From Desulfamplus sp. (lineage in GTDB: Bacteria > Desulfobacterota > Desulfobacteria > Desulfobacterales > Desulfobacteraceae), in contig JADFZJ010000012.1 in the NCBI GenBank assembly GCA_015232555.1, forward strand, positions 1-64,000: a stretch of 64,000 nucleotides of DNA. Reading direction: 5' to 3'. The position numbers and the translations under genes are program-made. This document shows, in pieces, positions 44,343 through 55,343 of this stretch. The number at the start of each line of letters is the position of its first letter. Position 1 is the stretch's first letter. Under the pieces are notes generated by a model. It had not been told where the DNA came from. It was given only the letters and a program-made list of their open reading frames with translations, and searched no databases.

Positions 44343-45092
44343 ATGAGGAGGAATCAACAAAGTATGATTAAAAATGACTCCAACACCTTCGTTAAAGACG
44401 ATACAGCCTTAAAAAATGTATGCAATCAACTTGTAACTGCGATTCTTGAGGCTAACCGTAAAATCGCCAACGCTCTTCTTGAAACATTTGCAGAAAAACA
44501 TGGATTTGATCTTACAGTTACAGAAATTTTAGAACCTTCACTTGAACGCATAGGGCACATGTGGGAGCAGACAGCACAGGTTTCTCTTGCTCAAGGGTAT
44601 GTTGCAGGCAAAATAGCAGAAGATTTTATGACAAAAATGGTAGAGCGTTATGGACATCTTGATCTCGCCGTATCTGGCACAGAGAGAGTCGGCGGAGACC
44701 ATATCAAAAAGGTTGCCGTTATTGGCAATATTGAAGATGATTATCACGCACTTGGACGTAAATTAGTCGGCACATTCCTTACAATGTCGGGCTGGCAAGT
44801 TCATGATCTTGGCAATGATGTTCCTGCAGAAGAGTTTGTTCAAACTGCTATTGAAACCAATGCACAAATAATCGGTGCATCGTCAATGATGTACAGCTCT
44901 GCAATGAACATCGCACGAGTGCGTGACCAAATTGAGAGGCAGAATCTGGCAAAACAGATAAAATTAGCAGTAGGCGGGGCTGTTTTTCGACTAAGACCAG
45001 AACTTGTCCACGAAGTCGGAGGAGATGGGACAGCTCCAAATGCAGTCAAAGCCCCTGCTCTGTTTGATCAGCTTTTAGTGCAATTGCAATGA
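44343..45092 (+). CDS. cobalamin-binding protein of the sensor/corrinoid type
   Basis: This 249-aa protein has two B12 modules. A four-helix cap (about 25-105) contains LERIGHMWEQTAQVSLAQ. This looks like the cap of B12-dependent regulators (W-x9-EH in CarH; here W74 then Gln84-Gly85) rather than the methyltransferase-type cap. The Rossmann domain (about 121-249) has the base-off motif DYHALG (133-138), with His135 as the likely lower Co ligand, plus GASSMMYSS and GGAVF. It opens an operon with a UroD-type methyltransferase. It could be a corrinoid methyl carrier or a corrinoid/light/methyl sensor. Confidence 0.85.
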   Translation: MRRNQQSMIKNDSNTFVKDDTALKNVCNQLVTAILEANRKIANALLETFAEKHGFDLTVTEILEPSLERIGHMWEQTAQVSLAQGYVAGKIAEDFMTKMVERYGHLDLAVSGTERVGGDHIKKVAVIGNIEDDYHALGRKLVGTFLTMSGWQVHDLGNDVPAEEFVQTAIETNAQIIGASSMMYSSAMNIARVRDQIERQNLAKQIKLAVGGAVFRLRPELVHEVGGDGTAPNAVKAPALFDQLLVQLQ

Positions 45093-45148
45093 TTTCAGCT
45101 CAGTTTTCAATAGGAATTTTAAAATTATTGTAAAAAATAGAGGTGCTA

Positions 45149-46180
45149 ATGAACAGTCTTGAACGAGTTTTAGGAAAAATTGAGGGCAGCCCTACAGATT
45201 ATCCTGCTGTTACATTAACGCTTTCTCTATATGGAGCACGGCTTACAAAATATCCGCTCAAAGAGTATTACACGAGAGCCGATGCCTATATTGAGGGGCA
45301 GATAGCAGTCAAAGAGACATTTAATCCTGATATCATCTTTACTCCATTTGCACTCACAGCAGAAGGAGAATCTTTTGGAAGCAAAGTGAAATTTTTTGAA
45401 AAGAACCCTCCAAATATTTCAAGATATGCAGCCAAATCCCCTGACGATGTGCTGAGTATAGATTTGCCCGATGTAAACAGCCACCCAAGACTCTGCTTTA
45501 TACGTGATGCTATAAGAGGTATCGCAGCAAAATATGGTAAAAATACTGCAATCTGCGGCGTTATGCTAAGTCCCATTGATCTGCCTCCGTTGATAATGGG
45601 TATTGATGGGTGGCTTGAAACTCTGCTGTTTGATCAAGATAATGCAAAACGAATTATTGATATGACCACACAATTTTTTCTTACATGGTCAAAAGCCATG
45701 TTTGAAGACGGTGTACATTTTATAGCTCTGCCGATTGTCTTTTGTAATCCCGCTATCGTTACAGATAGTATAATTCAGAATATCACCTTTCCAGCCCTTA
45801 AAAATGCTGTAAGTAATGCAGCGGGTCCTGTTGTTTTGCATCATGGCGGTGCTCCTATGTTCTCCTCTCTTGAAATGCTCGTCTCCATTCCAAATGTTGC
45901 TGCTTATGCAATAGATCACCGTGACGATTTTAAAACAGCCAGAGATATTGTTGGGTCAAATAAGGTGCTGCTTGGCAATATTGACGGTCCAACCCTATAC
46001 TCACACAATATTCAAGATATTGAGCAGATGACTTACAATATACTTAATGACAGAAAAGATGATTCCCATTTTATACTGGCATCTTCAAGTGCTGATATCG
46101 CTTTTGACACTCCGCCTGAAAATATCAATGCTGTTATCAAAGCTGCAAGAACTAACACTTTGCACAAAATCTCCAATTAA
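45149..46180 (+). CDS. uroporphyrinogen decarboxylase family methyltransferase (MtaA/CmuA-like)
   Basis: This 343-aa TIM-barrel protein is of the UroD/MtaA group. In this group, members without the UroD Arg motif transfer methyl groups between corrinoid proteins and thiols such as coenzyme M. The middle GVMLSPIDLPPLIMG and the C-terminal block VLHHGGAPMFSS with GNIDGP fit MtaA-like enzymes. A Cys-x-His zinc motif was not found with certainty. The start is ATG 45149 with agaggt upstream. It lies 57 bp after the B12 protein gene, its likely partner. True heme-pathway HemE is unlikely. Confidence 0.82.
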   Translation: MNSLERVLGKIEGSPTDYPAVTLTLSLYGARLTKYPLKEYYTRADAYIEGQIAVKETFNPDIIFTPFALTAEGESFGSKVKFFEKNPPNISRYAAKSPDDVLSIDLPDVNSHPRLCFIRDAIRGIAAKYGKNTAICGVMLSPIDLPPLIMGIDGWLETLLFDQDNAKRIIDMTTQFFLTWSKAMFEDGVHFIALPIVFCNPAIVTDSIIQNITFPALKNAVSNAAGPVVLHHGGAPMFSSLEMLVSIPNVAAYAIDHRDDFKTARDIVGSNKVLLGNIDGPTLYSHNIQDIEQMTYNILNDRKDDSHFILASSSADIAFDTPPENINAVIKAARTNTLHKISN

Positions 46181-46231
46181 TATGAAAGATGCGGGCTTCA
46201 ACTAACACATATAGAATCAGGAATGATGAGC

Positions 46232-46825
46232 ATGAGAAATAAACATGACAACATCACAATAATATCCTGTTCCCTTTTCCGTAATGAGATAGAAGCACTA
46301 TTCAATAGCGGTGAGCTGCAACTGCCTGTTGTCTACCTTGATTCTATTCTCCATATCTATCCTGAAAAGCTGAGAGCTGTTATGGACAAGGCTATCTTAC
46401 GAGAAGTGAACAAAAAAAGACAGGTGATACTGCTTTACGGAGAGTGCCACGCCTATATTTACGAATCTATCAAACATCCTGATGTAGAGCGTGTCAAAGG
46501 TCTCAACTGTATAGAGATCATAGTGGGAAAAGAGAAATATAAGCAGATACGCAAAGAGAGAATCTTCTGTTTTCTGCCTGAGTGGATAAATCGGTGGGAA
46601 GATATTTTTAGAGGTCATTTAGGGTTGAATCGTGAAAACTCAAGATCATTTATGCAGGATATGCACTCAGGTCTTCTCTATCTTGATACAGGACGCTTAG
46701 CTGTTCCGCCTGAGATTATAAAAGATATTGAAGATTACACAGGACTCAAGATGGATATCATGCCTGTTACTTCAGCTCACCTGCTTGCTTCTATTAATGA
46801 CGCATATACAAGGCTTGCAAGATGA
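46232..46825 (+). CDS. DUF1638 protein
   Basis: This roughly 197-aa protein is similar to the DUF1638 family, known from clusters with corrinoid methyltransferases in methanogens and anaerobes. It has YLDSILHIYPEKLRAVMD near 36-53 and LLYGECHAYI near 69-78, including the Cys of the family YGLCG-type motif. The function is undetermined; a role with the corrinoid enzyme is inferred from the operon. ATG 46232 is preferred, 9 nt after agga; earlier ATGs at 46223 and 46226 are too close. Its stop overlaps the kinase start by 4 nt. Confidence 0.75.
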   Translation: MRNKHDNITIISCSLFRNEIEALFNSGELQLPVVYLDSILHIYPEKLRAVMDKAILREVNKKRQVILLYGECHAYIYESIKHPDVERVKGLNCIEIIVGKEKYKQIRKERIFCFLPEWINRWEDIFRGHLGLNRENSRSFMQDMHSGLLYLDTGRLAVPPEIIKDIEDYTGLKMDIMPVTSAHLLASINDAYTRLAR

Positions 46826-48315
46826 TACCAATTGCTAACATTAAAGATAACCATAACCAAAATGATATATTGCCAAGAAGCGATATGCCAGCAGTTCAGT
46901 TTATGATAATGGACATTATTGAGCAAACTCTTGCCAATGCTGAAAATCCCGTATGGCTTGCTGAATATCTTACTCAGCAGATACGCTCATTAATCGGAGG
47001 TAAAATTGTTGTTCTTCTCGAATGTCAAAGTCAATGTGATAATGCTCCCACCGCTATATTATCAAATACCCCGCACTATAACCATACTATAACTGCAACA
47101 TCCCATCACAGAATTATAAGTGTATGCCCTGCTCGACATACTAAAGTGGTGGATACTCCTGAACTTCAACAGCTTGCTGAGTTCAGCCACAGAATAAAAA
47201 AGGCTGAAATCTGGAGTCCAACAGAGGGAGAACCAGATATACAGGAGATTCTCAAGAAAAAGCAGTGGGGAGTTTCAGTGGTTATGCCCTTGAATTTAGG
47301 TGCCAAGCGTTTTGGTCTTCTTTTGGTGATTAATCTGCTAAATACGCACAGGCTTGAAGAGATAATTCAAACGCTTGAAATGATGCCCAATATTATTGCT
47401 TTGGTGCTGAAAAACTCTCTTATTTATGAAGACCTTGAAAACATGGTCAAAATAAGGACATCAGAGCTTGAATCACGAACAGAAGAACTTGCAGCAAGAA
47501 CCCAAGAGCTTACTAATCTGACAGAAGAGCTTGCAAAGACAAATGAGGAGCTGGAGCAACTCAACAACGAGCTTGAAGAGAGAGTAAAACAGAGGACAGC
47601 ACAGCTTGAGGCATCCAACAAAGAGTTAAAGATAGCCAACAGAGAGCTTGAAGCGTTCTGCTACTCAGTTTCTCATGATCTTCGTACACCGTTACGCGGT
47701 ATTGACGGCTGGAGCTTTGTACTTGCAGAGGAGTTTGACGATGTGATAGGTGAGACAGGTAAACAATACATAGAGAAGATAAGATTAGAAACAGAGCGTA
47801 TGAGCGAACTGATTGACGATCTTCTTAATCTCTCTCGCATTACAAAAACCGAATTGGCTATAACTCCTATCAATATTTCCACACTTACAGCAAGTGTGGT
47901 TGAAAGGCTCAAAGAGAGATATTCTGAACGCAAAGTTGAAGTTGCGATTCAGCCCGAATTGACCGCTTATGGTGATATCAGGATGCTTGATATTGTTTTG
48001 ACAAATTTGATAGAGAATGCTTTTAAATTTACCAGTAAAACACCTGTGCCTAAAATAGAATTTGGAAAGATAGAAAATTTAAGATTAGAAAGCAGAAACA
48101 GACAGATATTTTATGTTAAAGATAATGGTGCTGGCTTTGACATGGCTTACTCTGCCAAACTTTTCGGAGCTTTCCAGAGGCTCCATAAGATAAGTGAATT
48201 CTCGGGAAACGGCGTTGGTCTGGCAACAGTTGATAGGATTATCCAGCGGCACGGTGGAAGAGTCTGGGCAGAGGGTGTTGTTAATCAAGGGGCAACATTC
48301 TATTTTAGTTTGTAA
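46822..48315 (+). CDS. cytoplasmic sensor histidine kinase
   Basis: This 497-aa protein has no membrane segment. A GAF-like N-terminal region (about 25-200) precedes a long coiled coil (about 205-280, repeated ELxxRTEEL). Then comes the phytochrome-like HisKA box SYSVSHDL-type (CYSVSHDLRTPLRG, His285), and the HATPase with NLIENAFKFT, DNGAGFDM and GNGVGLATV. The start overlaps the DUF1638 stop as ATGA, so it is translated with the corrinoid operon. No receiver gene is next to it. Its kinase core is nearly the same as in the 51-kb kinase, so they are paralogues. Confidence 0.88.
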   Translation: MIPIANIKDNHNQNDILPRSDMPAVQFMIMDIIEQTLANAENPVWLAEYLTQQIRSLIGGKIVVLLECQSQCDNAPTAILSNTPHYNHTITATSHHRIISVCPARHTKVVDTPELQQLAEFSHRIKKAEIWSPTEGEPDIQEILKKKQWGVSVVMPLNLGAKRFGLLLVINLLNTHRLEEIIQTLEMMPNIIALVLKNSLIYEDLENMVKIRTSELESRTEELAARTQELTNLTEELAKTNEELEQLNNELEERVKQRTAQLEASNKELKIANRELEAFCYSVSHDLRTPLRGIDGWSFVLAEEFDDVIGETGKQYIEKIRLETERMSELIDDLLNLSRITKTELAITPINISTLTASVVERLKERYSERKVEVAIQPELTAYGDIRMLDIVLTNLIENAFKFTSKTPVPKIEFGKIENLRLESRNRQIFYVKDNGAGFDMAYSAKLFGAFQRLHKISEFSGNGVGLATVDRIIQRHGGRVWAEGVVNQGATFYFSL

Positions 48316-48385: not shown

Positions 48386-48437
48386 AAATAATATAGTTAA
48401 AAAATCCAAAATTGAAATGAGAGAGAAAGAACAATTT

Positions 48438-51017
48438 ATGAAAAAAAGTTATATTATTATTTTTACAGCTTTGGCTTTGTTATTTTTGTTATATCAGTCT
48501 GACTGCAATGCTGGTCAGAAGATACGGGTAGGCGTGTATAATTTCAAACCCCTTGTCTTTATAGACGAAAATGGAAATGCAAGCGGATTTTTTCCTGATA
48601 TTCTCAATTATATTGCCGAAAAAGAGGGATGGGAAATTACCTATATTCACGGTTCATGGAGCGAATGCCTAAGTCGTGTTGAAACAGGCGAGGTAGATAT
48701 TCAGACAGCTATTGCCTATTCAGAAAAAAGAGATGAGATGCTTGATTTTTCTGAATACCTGATCATGGACTGGTCATCAGTATTTAAACAGAAAGGCAGT
48801 TCTATTCAGACAATTTTTGACCTTAAGGATAAAAAGGTCAGTGTGGTAAAAAGTGGCATAACTACTGATGATTTTAAGCGAGTGATTAAGCAGTTCGGGA
48901 TCAACTGCCAGATCATTGAAAAAAATGAAAACGTGGAAAATCTTGAAGCTGTCCACAATCGGGAGGCTGATGCAGGCATATCTCCTAACATCTACGGAAC
49001 AATGGTCGAAAACAGTTACAACATTGAAAGAACTCCAATTGTATTCTCACCGATAAAACTTGGATTTGCATCAAAAAAAGATGGAAACCGTGAGATTCTG
49101 TCAGTGCTCAACAAATATATTATAGAGATGAAAGCAGACGATGAGTCTATCTATTATCATTTTAGGGATAAATGGACAGGGGGTGGTGGAAAAGAGGAGA
49201 TGATTCCTGAATGGTTCTTCCCTGTGATGCTGATATTGTTATCCCTGTTTATAATGCTTGCTGTTTTTAACTTCATGTTAAAAACACAGGTGAAAACAAA
49301 GACATCAGAGTTTGTTGCTGCAAATAAAAACTTAACGCTCTCAAAAGAGAATTACCGCATTTTGCTTGAACAGGCAAAAGAGGAGATAAAAGAGCGTAAA
49401 CTTGCAGAGGCTGCATTAAAAGAGAGTGAAGAAAAATTTAAGGTTGTGTTTGAACAGGCTCCTGTTGGTATAATTATTTCAGACTCCAAGAGTGTGATAC
49501 TTAATTGCAATAATCATATTGTCAGCATATTCGGAGCTAAAAGGGAACAGTATTACGGTATGAATCTTCTTGAAAAGCTGCCAGATGGGGCTATCAAACA
49601 AAATCTTGCCAGTGCTCTTGCAGATTATGAACTCCACCAATATGAAGGTCCTTACACCTCTGTTTTAAGCGGTAAACATCTCCACCTGAGCATATTGAGC
49701 AAAAAAATATCTCCTGATTTAATAATCAGCATACTCATGGACATGACTAAACATAAGGAGGCAGAAGAGGAAAACAAAAAACTACAGCAGCAGCTCCTTC
49801 AGGCACATAAGATGGAATCTATCGGACGTTTAGCAGGCGGAGTAGCTCACGATTTCAATAACATGCTGGGAGTTATCATAGGTCATGTTGAACTGCTTCT
49901 TGATAAGGTTGATACGACAGAACCCTCTTATGGTGGATTGGCTGCTATTCAGAAAGCTGCAACCAGATCTGCTAATCTAACTAAACAGCTTCTTGCCTTT
50001 GCAAGAAAACAGATAGTAAATCTTCAGGTGGTTAATCTAAATGAGGCGGTTGAAGGGATGCTGTCAATGCTTGAACGGCTCATAGGAGAAGATATTAATT
50101 TGGTCTGGAGATGCTGTGAAAGTGTTGGAAATATAGAGATAGACCCATCTCAGATTGATCAGATTATGGTAAATTTGTGCGTAAATGCTAAAGATGCGAT
50201 TACAGAGAGAAGCAAAGATAATGCTGGCAAGACAGGCATAATAAACATTGAGACTGGAAAATCACTCTTTGATGCCGCCTATTGTGCAGATCACGTTGAG
50301 GCATTACCCGGCAGATATCTAATGCTTGCTGTAAGTGACAACGGCTGCGGTATTGATAATGAACGTCTTACTATGATTTTTGACCCGTTTTTTACAACAA
50401 AGGATATACATAAAGGGACTGGACTTGGACTCGCATCAGTCTATGGAATTGTCAAACAGAATAACGGTTTTATAAATGTTTACAGCGAACAGGGAGAAGG
50501 CACAACATTTAGAGTCTATCTGCCAGAGTATTATGAAGATGAAAATGGAGGCGATGTTTCAAAATACAATATCGAAAATCCCTCAAAATATAATAATGGA
50601 GGTTCTTCAGAATACTTAACAGAGTATGCACTTGATGGGAGCCTCAAAAAGGGAAAAGAGACAGTTCTGCTGGTAGAGGACGAACTGTGGCTTTTAGAGC
50701 TTGGTGAGACAATGTTGAAAAGGCTTGGTTATACTGTATTGACAGCCAATACACCTAAAGAGGCTGTCAATATTGCCAGAACATATCCAGAACAGATAAA
50801 TCTGCTTCTAACTGACGTTATCATGCCCGAGATGAACGGTCGAGACCTTGCAATACAGATGATTACAATAAGACCTGAGTTAAAATGCCTGTTCATGTCT
50901 GGATATACTGCAAATGTAATTGCTCATCATGGCGTTTTAGATGAAGATGTCAATTTTATCCAGAAACCATTCTCAATACAGGAGCTGTCAAGTAAAATAC
51001 GTAAATCTTTACAATAG
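48438..51017 (+). CDS. hybrid sensor kinase with solute-binding-type sensor, PAS and receiver
   Basis: About 859 aa in a BvgS/EvgS-like layout. A signal sequence is followed by a type-3 periplasmic solute-binding domain (about 22-255, [18 protein letters not shown]). One membrane helix (about 260-282) leads to a PAS domain (about 330-440). The NtrB-type HisKA box [12 protein letters not shown] contains the His, then an HATPase with DNGCGID and GTGLGLASV. The C-terminal receiver has phospho-Asp in [15 protein letters not shown] 48438 is chosen because it begins a standard signal peptide; 48417 is the alternative. The ligand is unknown. Confidence 0.88.
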
Positions 51018-51099
51018 AGGATAACGCATTGATAATTAAGGAGCTATGAAGAAAAATACGTAAACCTTTAAAATAGAGAGGATAAGGCATTGATAATTA
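50980..51099 (+). repeat. tandem duplication spanning a gene junction
   Basis: Copy 1 (50980-51038) and copy 2 (51039-51099) are directly adjacent and about 85% identical by eye, with a 2-nt length difference. Copy 1 holds the end of the upstream kinase gene and its stop. Copy 2 holds a decayed duplicate plus the TTG start of the next kinase. Confidence 0.8.
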
Positions 51100-53042
51100 C
51101 ACACTCAAATGACAAAAAATCCAATAAAACTGCCTCGACTGTCCGCAGGTGGAGACTTCGCACTCTTCTGTTTGTTTTAATTGTTATTATATTTATTCCG
51201 ATATCTATGCTTTTGATATTCCAAGGATACCAAGACAGAGAACAGAGTTTGACGGAAATAAAGAATCAGGCAGAGCAGTTGACAGAATTTTTTATTGATG
51301 AACAGGAGCATATCATTGAGCATAGCCAGCATCTTCTTGAAATAATAGCTCAAATACCAGCGGTACGAAATTATGATATTGAAGAGTGTAATAGTTTTCT
51401 AAAAACAATCCATAAATCTCATCTCCAATATTCCACTATTGTTGCAGCAAACAGGGAAGGTATTATTAATTGCTGTGCAATTCCGTTAAAAAAATCAATA
51501 AATGTCAGTGATCGTAACTGGTTTAAACGTGTGCGTGAGACAGGCAAGTTTGTGATAGATGAGTTTATAATCAGCAGATCAGCAAATAAAGCATCTCTCC
51601 CGTTTGCCTATCCTATCCTTGATGATAAGGGTAATTTTCAGATGGCAGTAGGTGCAGCCTTTGATTTATCGTACTATAATCAGATTTTCAAAAAAATTCC
51701 CCTTCCACCTGAGTCAGTTGTGATTATAACAGACAAGGAAGAGAATATATTGCATTTATATTCTGATTCCACAACAGAACAATGGCTTGGTCAACCACTT
51801 GCAAAGGTTAGAGGATTTTCAGTACCATCTGACACCAAAGGTAGTTTTACAGTAGAAGATATCGGTAAAAATGAACGGATTTACTTCTTTGAACACCTTT
51901 CAGTTGGACACCCAAACAATGAAATCTGTCTGTTTGTTGGATTTTCAAAAAAGATAATTTTTTATAAAGCTGACGAGCTTATGTCTATTAATATATTTGT
52001 GTTATCTATTACTGGACTGCTTTCATTGAGTCTTGGATGGTATTTTGGAGAAAAATATATTGTTACACCTATTAATCTGCTGGTTCAAAAGATTCAAAAA
52101 GTATCTTATCAAGGAAAGAATTTAGGGGATAAGGAGATAAATATAAGTATCTCTGAAAATATCTCTTATCCAAACCAAGAATTAGAATTGTTATCTAAAA
52201 ACTTTGATGATTTGGTTGATAGACTTTCTCAAAGAGAGATCAAGCAAAATCAGGCAGAAGAAGAGATACGAACTCTAAACATTGAACTTGAGTCTCGTGT
52301 AAAAGAGCGGACAGCCGAACTTAATGAATCCAATAAAATACTTGAAGCAATTAACAAAGAGCTTGAATCTTTCTCATATTCTGTCTCCCACGATCTGCGG
52401 GCACCGCTCAGAGGCATTGACGGCTGGAGTCTTGCTCTTTTAGAGGACTTTGAAGCATTACTTGGTAAGGAAGGCAGAAGATACGTAGAGAGAATAAGAG
52501 CAGAAACTCAGCGTATGGCAAGCCTTATTGATGATCTGCTCAAACTCTCTCGGCTTACCCGTTCTGAGATGAATATAAATTTGGTAAATCTTTCTGAATT
52601 AGCAGCTCAAGTGGCTGATACACTCAATGAATCTATAAGAGAAACAGAGCCTGAATGTCGAGTAGAATTGATAATTCAACCAGATATGACTGCTTATGCT
52701 GATGTTGGTATGATTGATATTGTTCTGACTAATCTGATGAGCAATGCTTTTAAGTTCACCAGCAAGGTAGGCAATCCTAAAATCGAATTTGGAAAATTAG
52801 AACAAAAAGAGAACGGCAGAGAGATATTTTTTGTCAAAGATAATGGTGCAGGTTTTGATATGCAGTATGCTTTTAAACTTTTTGGTGCGTTTCAGCGTCT
52901 GCACAAAGCCAGCGAATTTCCAGGAACAGGAATCGGGCTTGCAACTGTTCAACGTGTTATACACAAACATGGTGGAAGAGTCTGGGCAGAAGGTGAGGTG
53001 AATAATGGGGCAACATTTTATTTTACACTATCTTCTGTATGA
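51090..53042 (+). CDS. membrane sensor histidine kinase with dCache domain
   Basis: This 650-aa kinase has TM1 about 24-46 and a periplasmic PDC/dCache sensor domain about 50-290 (DRNWFKRVRETGKFVIDE is typical). TM2 is about 302-325, followed by a HAMP-like and coiled-coil linker. The HisKA box YSVSHDLRAPLRG contains His434, and the HATPase has NLMSNAFKFT and GTGIGLATV. The start is TTG 51090 with gagg 8 nt upstream; the first ATG is far inside the membrane helix. The kinase core closely matches the 46.8-kb kinase. No receiver domain is present. Confidence 0.88.
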   Translation: MIITHSNDKKSNKTASTVRRWRLRTLLFVLIVIIFIPISMLLIFQGYQDREQSLTEIKNQAEQLTEFFIDEQEHIIEHSQHLLEIIAQIPAVRNYDIEECNSFLKTIHKSHLQYSTIVAANREGIINCCAIPLKKSINVSDRNWFKRVRETGKFVIDEFIISRSANKASLPFAYPILDDKGNFQMAVGAAFDLSYYNQIFKKIPLPPESVVIITDKEENILHLYSDSTTEQWLGQPLAKVRGFSVPSDTKGSFTVEDIGKNERIYFFEHLSVGHPNNEICLFVGFSKKIIFYKADELMSINIFVLSITGLLSLSLGWYFGEKYIVTPINLLVQKIQKVSYQGKNLGDKEINISISENISYPNQELELLSKNFDDLVDRLSQREIKQNQAEEEIRTLNIELESRVKERTAELNESNKILEAINKELESFSYSVSHDLRAPLRGIDGWSLALLEDFEALLGKEGRRYVERIRAETQRMASLIDDLLKLSRLTRSEMNINLVNLSELAAQVADTLNESIRETEPECRVELIIQPDMTAYADVGMIDIVLTNLMSNAFKFTSKVGNPKIEFGKLEQKENGREIFFVKDNGAGFDMQYAFKLFGAFQRLHKASEFPGTGIGLATVQRVIHKHGGRVWAEGEVNNGATFYFTLSSV

Positions 53043-53096
53043 TTCAAAATAAACACTTTCTTTATATTATGTTTTTAAAAAAGGTTACTATTAAAT

Positions 53097-55343
53097 ATGA
53101 ATACAATACCACAAATAATAAGCCCTGACGGCTATATAAACACAATTCAGGAAAAAAAAGGAAGGGCAGATTCAGCAAAACAGTCAGAGTCAATAGATGC
53201 AAGTTTCTATTTCCCCTCTGTTTCCGATTATATTAGAGGTTCAATTGCAGAAGGCAAACCCTATTTTTTTGTCGGAAGAAGTGGCAATGCTCAGATTGGC
53301 GTAAAAACAGATCAGACCAATTCAGGATCAATGCCTGTAATTGACAATCAAGATATCTATATTGAAGGTCAGATTCAAAACCTAAATCCGCTTTTAGATA
53401 TAGGATTACAACCCGGAAATGTTCTGGAGCTTTTTAAAAAAGGAGATGAGATAGGCAGGCTTGTTGTTATGGATCCTGAACTTAGAATCGATGATGTCCG
53501 CCACTATCTACACAAAAGGCTCTTTGTTGGCAGAGAGATTACCAAGGGCTATTATAAGGGGTTTGAGATTCATCAGGAGAGAGACCCTTTAACAGGAAAG
53601 GTGGCAGACTATATCACAATTGACATTGAGCCGTTTCAATACATTTTTGAACCATACTCAATTAATCCTTCAAGTATAAATGCGGTTATTAAAGAGGGTA
53701 GAAGTGCATTGAGTAAAATCAGGTCAAGAGTGGCAATTGATCTCACAAATCAAGTATTAAAACCCAATGAACTCTTTGTGGGTGATATAAAAATATCTCT
53801 TGGAGATGTTTATGCCATAATTGATGCTGTGGTTGAACCTGAATCAAGCCGTATTGAACACCTTCCAGCAAGAGTTCTTGATCCTTTCCGAACTTTTCGC
53901 AATCGTCAGGTAGAGTTGTATAATTTTGGCAGCTTGGATATTCCATTGAATGAGATAAAAATCAGAGTCCGTTTTTTCAGAACTAAAAATCCGCTTACTG
54001 TTCCATTGGAAAAGAATAAAGTTAAAGAGGGGTATAGGCTCTACGATCTTCTGACCAACGCAGAAATCAGTAATCTTTTCAGCTCCATTCATCACAACTC
54101 TCTTGGTATGATTTTGAATAAAGGAAATTTTGTTCAGATTCCAAGGGCACAAAACCCTGAAGGAGAGGCTCAGTTTGAGATTATTAAAAATTCTGTTGTG
54201 CAGAGCACCTCTCGAAAATCAGAGTTGGTGCTGCCAATTTCAGGAAGAGGAGAGTTGCAAAATGGCGAATTCCGTAAAACTCTTCAGAAACTTTCAGTTC
54301 TTGGAGGGATTAACAGCCGTGTCTTTATCGGAGAGAATTTTCCTTCTCCTGATGTTATAAATGCCCTGAACAGAAGCGGAATCAGAACTTTTTTAATAAA
54401 CGCAGTAGGTTCATCTTCATCCAAATCTGATTTAAACGACTCTGATTCAGCCACTCAAATAGAGTATTTAATCGGTTCAGCCACTCCATCATTTGAAGAT
54501 GACTATGTAAAAAGAATGATAGTACTCACGCATACTGACCACGCTGCCTGTGAATTTTTAAGGTATGATGCAGAGACTGACAAGCTCTACACTTTTTATC
54601 GCGGGTGCTTTATTGAGCCTGATGATAAAGAGCGGTTTGACAGGGTGAGATACTGGTTTGCATTTTACGGTTCTCACACTAAAGATGCAGACAATCGCCT
54701 AACAATTGATCTTATCAATCAGCTTGCAGCAAAACTTGGTGATGAGATGGGCATTGCTCACGGAGGAGGTCCGGGGCTTATGAAAGAGTCGAACGATCTT
54801 GCACGCAAACACAACATAATGAGCGTGGGTATTGCAATTGATCTTGAAGGAGAGCGTCAGTTGTCTCTTACCACCTGTGACGGGCTTATCAAGTATAAGG
54901 AGGGGTTACGCTTGGCAAGGCAGGATCACCTTCAGAAACTGAGCAACCTGCCTATTATCAACACTGGCGGCTATGGTACGTCAGAAGAGCTTGCAATCTC
55001 TATTACATCTATGAAAATCCATGAAAGCCCTCTTGCACCCATAATTTTGCTTGATCCTGATAATTTGTGGAGTCATGCACAGCGGCAGACTATTGAAATT
55101 GCAGAACGAAAATATGGTCCAGCTTTTATTCCAAATCTTATTAAACCATGCCGCAATGCTGATGAAGCAGTAAAAGAGATTATCCGTTTTTTATCTCATC
55201 CTGACAACTGGTATAAAAAGAATAAAATTCCACGAGAGAACATCGAAAAATCAAGAGTCAAATCAAGACGTATCAGGCAGGAGACACTTGGACAAGATTA
55301 TGTTGAAGTGTTTGAAAATCCGAATCACAGGCTGATGGTTTAA
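53097..55343 (+). CDS. large LOG-family protein (nucleotide-binding Rossmann domain)
   Basis: LOG/PpnN-type enzymes hydrolyse the N-glycosidic bond of nucleoside monophosphates. The C-terminal third has the family signatures GGGPGLMKE (about 556-564) and GGYGTSEE (about 623-630, standing for PGGxGTxxE). Length is 748 aa, much more than typical LOG (about 200) or PpnN (454). The first roughly 500 residues form a separate region of unknown fold. It follows the kinases by 54 bp on the same strand. The older label 'lysine decarboxylase' should not be used. Confidence 0.78.
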   Translation: MNTIPQIISPDGYINTIQEKKGRADSAKQSESIDASFYFPSVSDYIRGSIAEGKPYFFVGRSGNAQIGVKTDQTNSGSMPVIDNQDIYIEGQIQNLNPLLDIGLQPGNVLELFKKGDEIGRLVVMDPELRIDDVRHYLHKRLFVGREITKGYYKGFEIHQERDPLTGKVADYITIDIEPFQYIFEPYSINPSSINAVIKEGRSALSKIRSRVAIDLTNQVLKPNELFVGDIKISLGDVYAIIDAVVEPESSRIEHLPARVLDPFRTFRNRQVELYNFGSLDIPLNEIKIRVRFFRTKNPLTVPLEKNKVKEGYRLYDLLTNAEISNLFSSIHHNSLGMILNKGNFVQIPRAQNPEGEAQFEIIKNSVVQSTSRKSELVLPISGRGELQNGEFRKTLQKLSVLGGINSRVFIGENFPSPDVINALNRSGIRTFLINAVGSSSSKSDLNDSDSATQIEYLIGSATPSFEDDYVKRMIVLTHTDHAACEFLRYDAETDKLYTFYRGCFIEPDDKERFDRVRYWFAFYGSHTKDADNRLTIDLINQLAAKLGDEMGIAHGGGPGLMKESNDLARKHNIMSVGIAIDLEGERQLSLTTCDGLIKYKEGLRLARQDHLQKLSNLPIINTGGYGTSEELAISITSMKIHESPLAPIILLDPDNLWSHAQRQTIEIAERKYGPAFIPNLIKPCRNADEAVKEIIRFLSHPDNWYKKNKIPRENIEKSRVKSRRIRQETLGQDYVEVFENPNHRLMV

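Follow-up and report, generated by a model that had tools for sequence, protein, structure and literature searches.

The first 64,000 nucleotides of contig JADFZJ010000012.1 of Desulfamplus sp. (assembly GCA_015232555.1), referred to here as the window, carry an operon in which the genes for a B12-binding (corrinoid) protein, a UroD-family protein and a DUF1638 protein are followed by that of a histidine kinase, HK1. Comparison with related loci gives good support to the conclusion that the genes for the B12 protein, an altered UroD and DUF1638, together with that for a GAF-domain protein, form a conserved and tightly packed genomic unit. As a genomic unit it is also well supported to be widespread, and no description of it was found in the literature searched, which lay mostly outside subscription journals. 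The genes and the two parts of the kinase gene are as follows.

44343..45092, + strand: B12-binding (corrinoid) protein, 249 amino acids (aa) (Pfam PF02310, 70.5 bits)
45143..46180, + strand: UroD-family protein without the zinc cysteines of MtaA (Pfam PF01208, 168.5 bits; alignment to MtaA, PDB 4ay7; tree)
46223..46825, + strand: DUF1638 protein, 200 aa (Pfam PF07796, 82.2 bits; conservation; model with a predicted local distance difference test score, pLDDT, of 93.9)
46822..48315, + strand: soluble histidine kinase HK1, 497 aa (Pfam HisKA 52.5 bits, HATPase_c 68 bits)
46876..47490, + strand: GAF-fold domain at the HK1 N terminus, the conserved input of the fourth gene (profile A1, leave-out test, AlphaFold2, structure match)
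47653..48312, + strand: HK1 output part, HisKA plus HATPase_c (Pfam; 57% identity to the kinase part of HK3, a second kinase of the window)

Recurrence of the four-gene unit

The four open reading frames are tightly packed, and the stop codon of DUF1638 and the start codon of the kinase overlap as ATGA at 46822-46825; coordinates and Pfam matches agree with the packed operon described in the first-pass annotation, which was made from the letters of the window alone. For UroD, the ATG at 45149, behind GAGGTG, looks like a better start than 45143. Scans of the window returned 14 promoter-like sites (13.7 in shuffles) and 6 terminator-like sites (3.6 in shuffles). Neither a cobalamin riboswitch nor any other Rfam family was found in the window at gathering score (0 matches), which leaves riboswitch control of the operon without support.

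Scanning of genome contigs with the B12 protein of the window gave 23 seed loci, with B12 proteins 44-56% identical to it. Their record titles name Chloroflexi, Nitrospirae, Clostridiaceae, several Desulfobacterota-type bacteria, Sedimentisphaerales, Spirochaetes/Treponema, Myxococcota, Holophagaceae and unclassified bins, which we take to amount to about eight phyla. UroD follows the B12 protein in 23/23 of these loci (L020 ends inside UroD), DUF1638 follows UroD in 21 of the 22 with room for it, and the N-terminal domain of HK1 recurs in a fourth gene in 22/22 with room, in the cut locus L017 by a blastp match. Since the B12 protein served as the seed, the fourth gene was not selected for, and because the gene order recurs in relatives this distant, the operon is not a chance arrangement. 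The DUF1638 stop overlaps the first possible start of the fourth gene in 15/17 loci, with a widest gap of 4 nucleotides, a count in which starts were picked mechanically, L014 was left out and fused or DUF1638-less loci were inapplicable. L012 was outside the Pfam scan, and L013, L017 and L020 are cut by contig ends. Besides the four genes, two groups were common to at least three seed loci: relatives of the kinase and receiver proteins, and ABC ATPases of differing kinds.

The association was also followed from its other members in 395 genomes of the window's phylum and 241 genomes of the order of Desulfocicer vacuolatum. DUF1638 occurs in 94/395 genomes with 128 matches, and 59 neighbourhoods were picked by hand (58 stretches covering 59 of the 128 matches, plus G042:C256). 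Eight of them (L096-L102, L122) have a sensor-type UroD, defined as one scoring over 200 bits in a custom profile, and a GAF, kinase or PAS protein lies beside DUF1638 or is fused to it in 8/8, against a same-strand kinase within 0.5 kb in only 2/51 control neighbourhoods without such a UroD (L104, L131). Five matches to the GAF profile exceeded 100 bits in the 395 genomes (G000, G042 twice, G067, G362) and all five adjoin DUF1638, the next match scoring 38.2 bits; this profile was scored on at most 8 candidates per genome here and 13 in the 241 genomes, so that some domains may escape it. With UroD as the query, 65 genomes yielded 89 matches at E 1e-20. Of those with at least 160 bits, 11/12 are accompanied by a GAF, kinase or PAS regulator, L157 having none adjacent, compared with a kinase in 4/38 stretches (L158, L159, L163, L165) fetched for the 77 weaker matches. 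An added look for PAS, GGDEF or HD-GYP genes picked out only L157, L159 and L163, and within 2.5 kb no further locus with such a gene was found among the 38 control stretches. The 12 DUF1638 matches in the 241 genomes divide into six with a sensor-type UroD and a regulator, five with RACo beside or fused to them and one with neither. DUF1638 over 200 bits adjoins the GAF domain in 5/5, and the sixth GAF match belongs to the genome of L016, whose locus is without DUF1638. All six sensor-type loci carry the regulator; two of them (G411, G416) are seed genomes. Counted over the three collections, a regulator is kept beside the other genes in 22/22 seed loci, 8/8 loci of the 395 genomes and 6/6 of the 241.

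Corrinoid protein, UroD and DUF1638

The B12 protein has the features of MtbC/MtgC-like corrinoid proteins, namely a B12-binding domain, a base-off DxHxxG motif and an upstream cap. The cap motif GxxW contains W74 (codon 44562-44564) and the base-off motif is DYHALG, D133 to G138, with H135 at 44745-44747; both W74 and H135 are kept in 24/24 aligned proteins. W74, DYHALG and Q84-G85 had all been pointed out before and are present, although the spacing had been described as altered from the W-x9-EH of CarH: nine residues separate W74 and Q84, which is the same spacing. The cap model PF02607 matched at 19.7 bits, under its cut-off of 23, and no curated NCBIfam cut-off was reached by the B12 protein or by UroD. 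Elsewhere, a sensor-type B12 protein of 648 aa (L196, 1975-3918) has a weak N-terminal metallo-beta-lactamase match (20.5 bits, cut-off 22.7).

UroD can be aligned to MtaA (PDB 4ay7) over nearly its whole length and belongs to the URO-D family. The MtaA site, H-x-C followed by a distant C, presumably ligates zinc, and its positions were taken from the 4ay7 alignment. H233 (codon 45839-45841) corresponds to the first zinc histidine and is kept in 23/23 window-type proteins (window plus 22 loci), but both cysteines are missing, with Cys in 0/23 at aligned position 235 and 0/23 at position 317. In the UroD of L027 a Cys precedes the latter position by one residue (316), and D318, beside the second MtaA Cys position, is invariant in 23/23. 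The missing cysteines rule out an ordinary MtaA/CmuA methylcobamide methyltransferase, and the NCBIfam methyltransferase models were also not reached (118.7 bits versus a cut-off of 244, and 89.1 versus 235.4).

A quick maximum likelihood tree of 83 UroD rows, two of them with long branches, groups 35 rows in one clade with a Shimodaira-Hasegawa-like approximate likelihood ratio test (SH-aLRT) value of 98. This clade holds the window, the seed loci, the UroD of a second cluster of the window's own genome (C26), the second UroD of L015, L096-L102, L122, L156 and L157. Sensor labels were set by hand for the window and C26 and by a rule on kinase or GAF profile hits only for the others; 33 of the 35 rows are labelled as sensor, L122, a DUF1638-PAS fusion, escaped the rule, and L157 has no adjacent regulator. 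The label changes 4 times on the tree against a mean of 27.5 in shuffles, and 0/500 shuffles were as low. A second clade (SH-aLRT 99) contains the four kinase-linked rows L158, L159, L163 and L165. In L158 (4741-7623) and L159 (1834-4488), UroD is fused to a ferredoxin-RACo part, and genes for a B12 protein and a histidine kinase adjoin it, joined in L159 by a GGDEF gene; L163 has the same order with RACo as a separate gene, and no RACo was seen in L165.

C26 (G000:C26; L034, 6658-13328) encodes a 1,385-aa PAS/GAF hybrid kinase, a B12 protein, UroD and a 256-aa protein but no DUF1638, the window gene being the only DUF1638 match of this genome. The 256-aa protein has no Pfam match and a Cys-rich tail (ICxxCKxIRDDxGYW ... 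ICxxC); it is 37% identical to the fourth gene of L016 over 145 aa, and its match to the GAF domain is weak (hhalign probability 6).

DUF1638 is a clear member of its Pfam family (82.2 bits, cut-off 27) without an NCBIfam match. C16, H44, C75 and C96 are invariant in 22/22 window-type proteins and in 8/8 others over 95 bits, and among 50 weaker proteins they are kept in 48, 47, 49 and 49, the remainder being gaps. The tetrad, kept by strong and weak members alike, thus characterizes the sampled family as a whole, and it is a candidate metal- or corrinoid-handling site. The protein model has no clear fold relative: the best Z score was 9.6 over 83 residues to 3lfh_F (ManX), followed by 8.4 and by 7.7 to 2pju_A (PrpR), and the best Foldseek E value was 7e-3, weak matches that leave a known fold possible.

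The first-pass annotation had stated that the operon lacks a reactivase, which does not hold in that form because DUF1638 is genetically tied to corrinoid reactivation. According to passages of PMC5764234, methionine synthesis in Phaeobacter inhibens requires both DUF1638 and a RamA-like protein, which are thought to reactivate B12; its authors offer no specific proposal for the role of DUF1638. Part of another report describes SPO2162 (DUF1638) and RamA as higher in abundance on N-osmolytes (PMC12478193). In line with such a role, which it supports, L198 (4956-7499) encodes DUF1638 fused to Fer2-RACo in one 848-aa protein. RACo is found in 13/51 DUF1638 neighbourhoods without a sensor-type UroD and in 0/8 with one, and it replaces DUF1638 in three kinase-linked loci (L158, L159, L163). 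DUF1638 is therefore likely a reactivation protein, and it appears to be a helper on corrinoid proteins that can be coupled either to the activase or to a sensor.

A conserved GAF input with exchangeable outputs

HK1 has the HisKA and HATPase_c domains of a two-component histidine kinase, is without a receiver domain and, with a highest 19-residue hydropathy mean of 1.45, is not expected to span the membrane. The first-pass annotation treated the fourth gene as a kinase, but it is the N-terminal region of about 190 residues that is conserved, and the kinase part is exchangeable. AlphaFold2 run on 22 sequences gave a GAF fold for this region with a pLDDT of 85.3; the model matches 8bor_D, a phytochrome sensory module, with a Z score of 17.2 (159 residues, 2.4 Å), other GAF structures scored 15-16.7, and Foldseek returned E 6.1e-6 for the HK1 N terminus against phytochrome modules holding GAF domains. 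The Pfam GAF models did not reach HK1 itself at E 0.001. In a leave-out test, a profile built from 10 of the 22 sequences recovered the other 12 at E 3e-16 or better.

Behind this domain, most seed loci have HisKA, with or without a receiver, and others have HisKA_2 (L023, L026), GGDEF (L029), PAS only (L015, L031) or a Cys-motif tail (L016); the sampled genomes add HD-GYP (L098) and a further PAS-only form (L122). The sensing circuit suggested in the first-pass annotation is partly supported: the conserved regulator does not refute it and the DUF1638 fusions go further than it did, but the output is not a kinase as such, and methyl or corrinoid status would be a putative signal. Fusions of DUF1638 to the regulator were detected by Pfam in L022, L026, L098 and L122 and by a custom profile only in L156, and UroD is fused to DUF1638 in L018. 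Residues 221-497 of HK1 share 57% identity with the kinase part of HK3, so the output has probably been exchanged locally while the input was retained.

HK1 is followed by further kinases on the same strand, one at 48417 (SBP_bac_3, PAS, kinase and receiver) and HK3 at 51090-53042, which has a Cache match under the cut-off. These two kinases and a 748-aa gene make up 48417-55343; we take the C-terminal part of the latter, for which no search was made, to resemble a LOG-family protein.

A corrinoid module as a proposed signalling input

We infer the signal and the chemistry of the unit. Our preferred reading, with a probability of roughly 60%, is that a corrinoid methyl-transfer module, encoded by the first three genes, has been turned into the input of a signalling protein. 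In such a relay, UroD would bind a methylated effector, whose methyl group it would transfer to the B12 protein's Co(I). DUF1638, which other loci have next to or fused with the activase RACo, would bind the corrinoid protein and connect its methylated, Co(I) or inactive Co(II) state to the GAF domain, which would then switch the kinase, cyclase or phosphodiesterase output; in the lineage of the window, the output is a soluble histidine kinase without a receiver domain. We give this exact chemistry, from UroD through Co(I) and DUF1638 to GAF, somewhat less than even odds. It is a slightly more tentative suggestion that the full relay (UroD as donor enzyme, the B12 protein, and DUF1638 or RACo) constitutes a distinct sensor class, which reads a methylated compound by demethylating it and conveys the cobalt state through DUF1638 and GAF to phosphorylation or to the synthesis or breakdown of cyclic di-GMP.

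Several observations weigh against a signalling module. The neighbourhoods and fusions also fit an enzyme with a co-transcribed regulator, and UroD itself could be the substrate methyltransferase, as proposed for MecE. Within the GAF domain no Cys or His is conserved and just four residues (G59, P103, P156, G165) are invariant, and the domain could bind a small ligand of its own. DUF1638 is missing from L016, and no named output domain was seen in the fourth genes of L015, L016, L031 and L122. L100-L102 have also lost H233, and their kinase matches the GAF region poorly (hhalign probability 52 over 71 columns). In L157 (G119), a UroD of the sensor clade stands without a neighbouring B12 protein or DUF1638, with just a GGDEF gene at a distance of about 1.3 kb. 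Finally, some carriers are rich in methyltransferases, with 23 MTTB matches in G411.

One alternative is an ordinary catabolic corrinoid methyltransferase operon with its own regulator, in which UroD is the substrate methyltransferase and the GAF domain of the kinase binds the substrate and turns the operon on. The mec cassette is a precedent for it, uniting a PocR histidine kinase, a receiver, a corrinoid protein, an MtaA/CmuA-family methyltransferase and, in most members, reactivation proteins according to the sections of PMC9768040 that describe it, and MTTB genes occur in 5/24 carrier genomes. Nevertheless, we consider this explanation unlikely. The window operon has no second methyltransferase, as the first-pass annotation had already stated for the MtaB/MttB type. 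Nor does such an enzyme always accompany the cluster elsewhere, as MtaB is absent from 24/24 and MTTB from 19/24 carriers, most of which are metagenome bins in which genome-wide absences may be gaps. MtaB and MTTB were the substrate methyltransferases covered, and UroD itself could be a methyltransferase. Where MTTB is present, it lies on other contigs in G000, G402 and G411 (L013 has no room, and the mapping did not include L029 of G415), and the genome of the window has one MTTB, no MtaB and two RACo, all outside the operon. RACo had no hits in the open reading frames of the 23 seed loci, and RACo_C_ter no match among the window proteins scanned with Pfam; in the carrier genomes, RACo is present in 13/24 and none was seen in 11/24. 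Moreover, GGDEF and HD-GYP outputs do not directly switch the transcription of an operon, and it is DUF1638 itself that is fused to regulators.

Several MTTB matches in G411 and G415 (Desulfocicer vacuolatum and a Desulfobacterium bin) contain a single in-frame TAG, as would be expected for pyrrolysine.

A sensor of corrinoid supply or oxidation, in which the apo, base-on or Co(II) form of the B12 protein is the signal and UroD serves only for docking or gating, would agree with the tie of DUF1638 to B12 reactivation in the passages of PMC5764234, with its RACo neighbourhoods and fusion and with RACo taking its place in the three kinase-linked loci. We regard it as quite improbable, since the presence of UroD in every seed locus and the invariance of H233 and D318 are more than a supply sensor should need, and the window has no cobalamin riboswitch. 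CarH-like light sensing, in which photolysis of adenosylcobalamin on the B12 protein would be relayed to the regulator, has in its favour the GxxW cap in 24/24 proteins and a score of 34.4 bits with the CarH model, far below the cut-off of 400, but of the light signature as given in part of PMC11796333 (GxxW, EH, GxxH, GxxxP) the other elements are kept in 0/24, 1/24 and 4/24, which rules it out for practical purposes.

If the reading of the trio as a signalling input is right, the chemistry of vitamin B12 would serve many bacteria as a general signalling input, by which methylated compounds or the redox health of corrinoid proteins would be sensed through enzymatic methyl transfer and not by simple binding. 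DUF1638 would gain a testable role as the adaptor that connects corrinoid proteins with either an activase or a sensor. Carriers with culture-collection numbers are Malonomonas rubra DSM 5091 (L018) and Desulfocicer vacuolatum DSM 3385 (L025).

Among known systems, the mec cassette (MecA-MecJ) of dichloromethane degraders is alike in clustering a histidine kinase with a corrinoid protein, an MtaA/CmuA-family protein and, in most members, reactivation proteins, but as described in part of PMC9768040 it has two more methyltransferases I (MTI), a methyltransferase II (MTII), a receiver, a transporter and a PocR kinase. The operon studied here has a GAF input and none of these; the scan of the window proteins gave neither a PocR match for HK1 nor another methyltransferase, and DUF1638-regulator fusions occur in relatives. 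In the split methionine synthase of P. inhibens, a corrinoid protein and DUF1638 also adjoin and DUF1638 is needed along with a RamA-like protein, but in the sections of PMC5764234 concerned the partners are the homocysteine and pterin halves of methionine synthase with no sensor, whereas here they are UroD and a regulator. MtaA, MtbA and CmuA share the URO-D family with the UroD of the window, which differs in lacking both zinc cysteines and in scoring far under the NCBIfam cut-offs. CarH has the B12-binding domain, the Trp cap at the same spacing and a regulatory setting in common with the B12 protein; in contrast, three of its four light-signature elements are not kept here and the window's B12 protein carries no fused output domain. 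GAF two-component kinases, finally, have the same GAF-fold input and HisKA/HATPase_c output, whereas in this unit the input gene is coupled to a corrinoid trio and the class of output varies from locus to locus.

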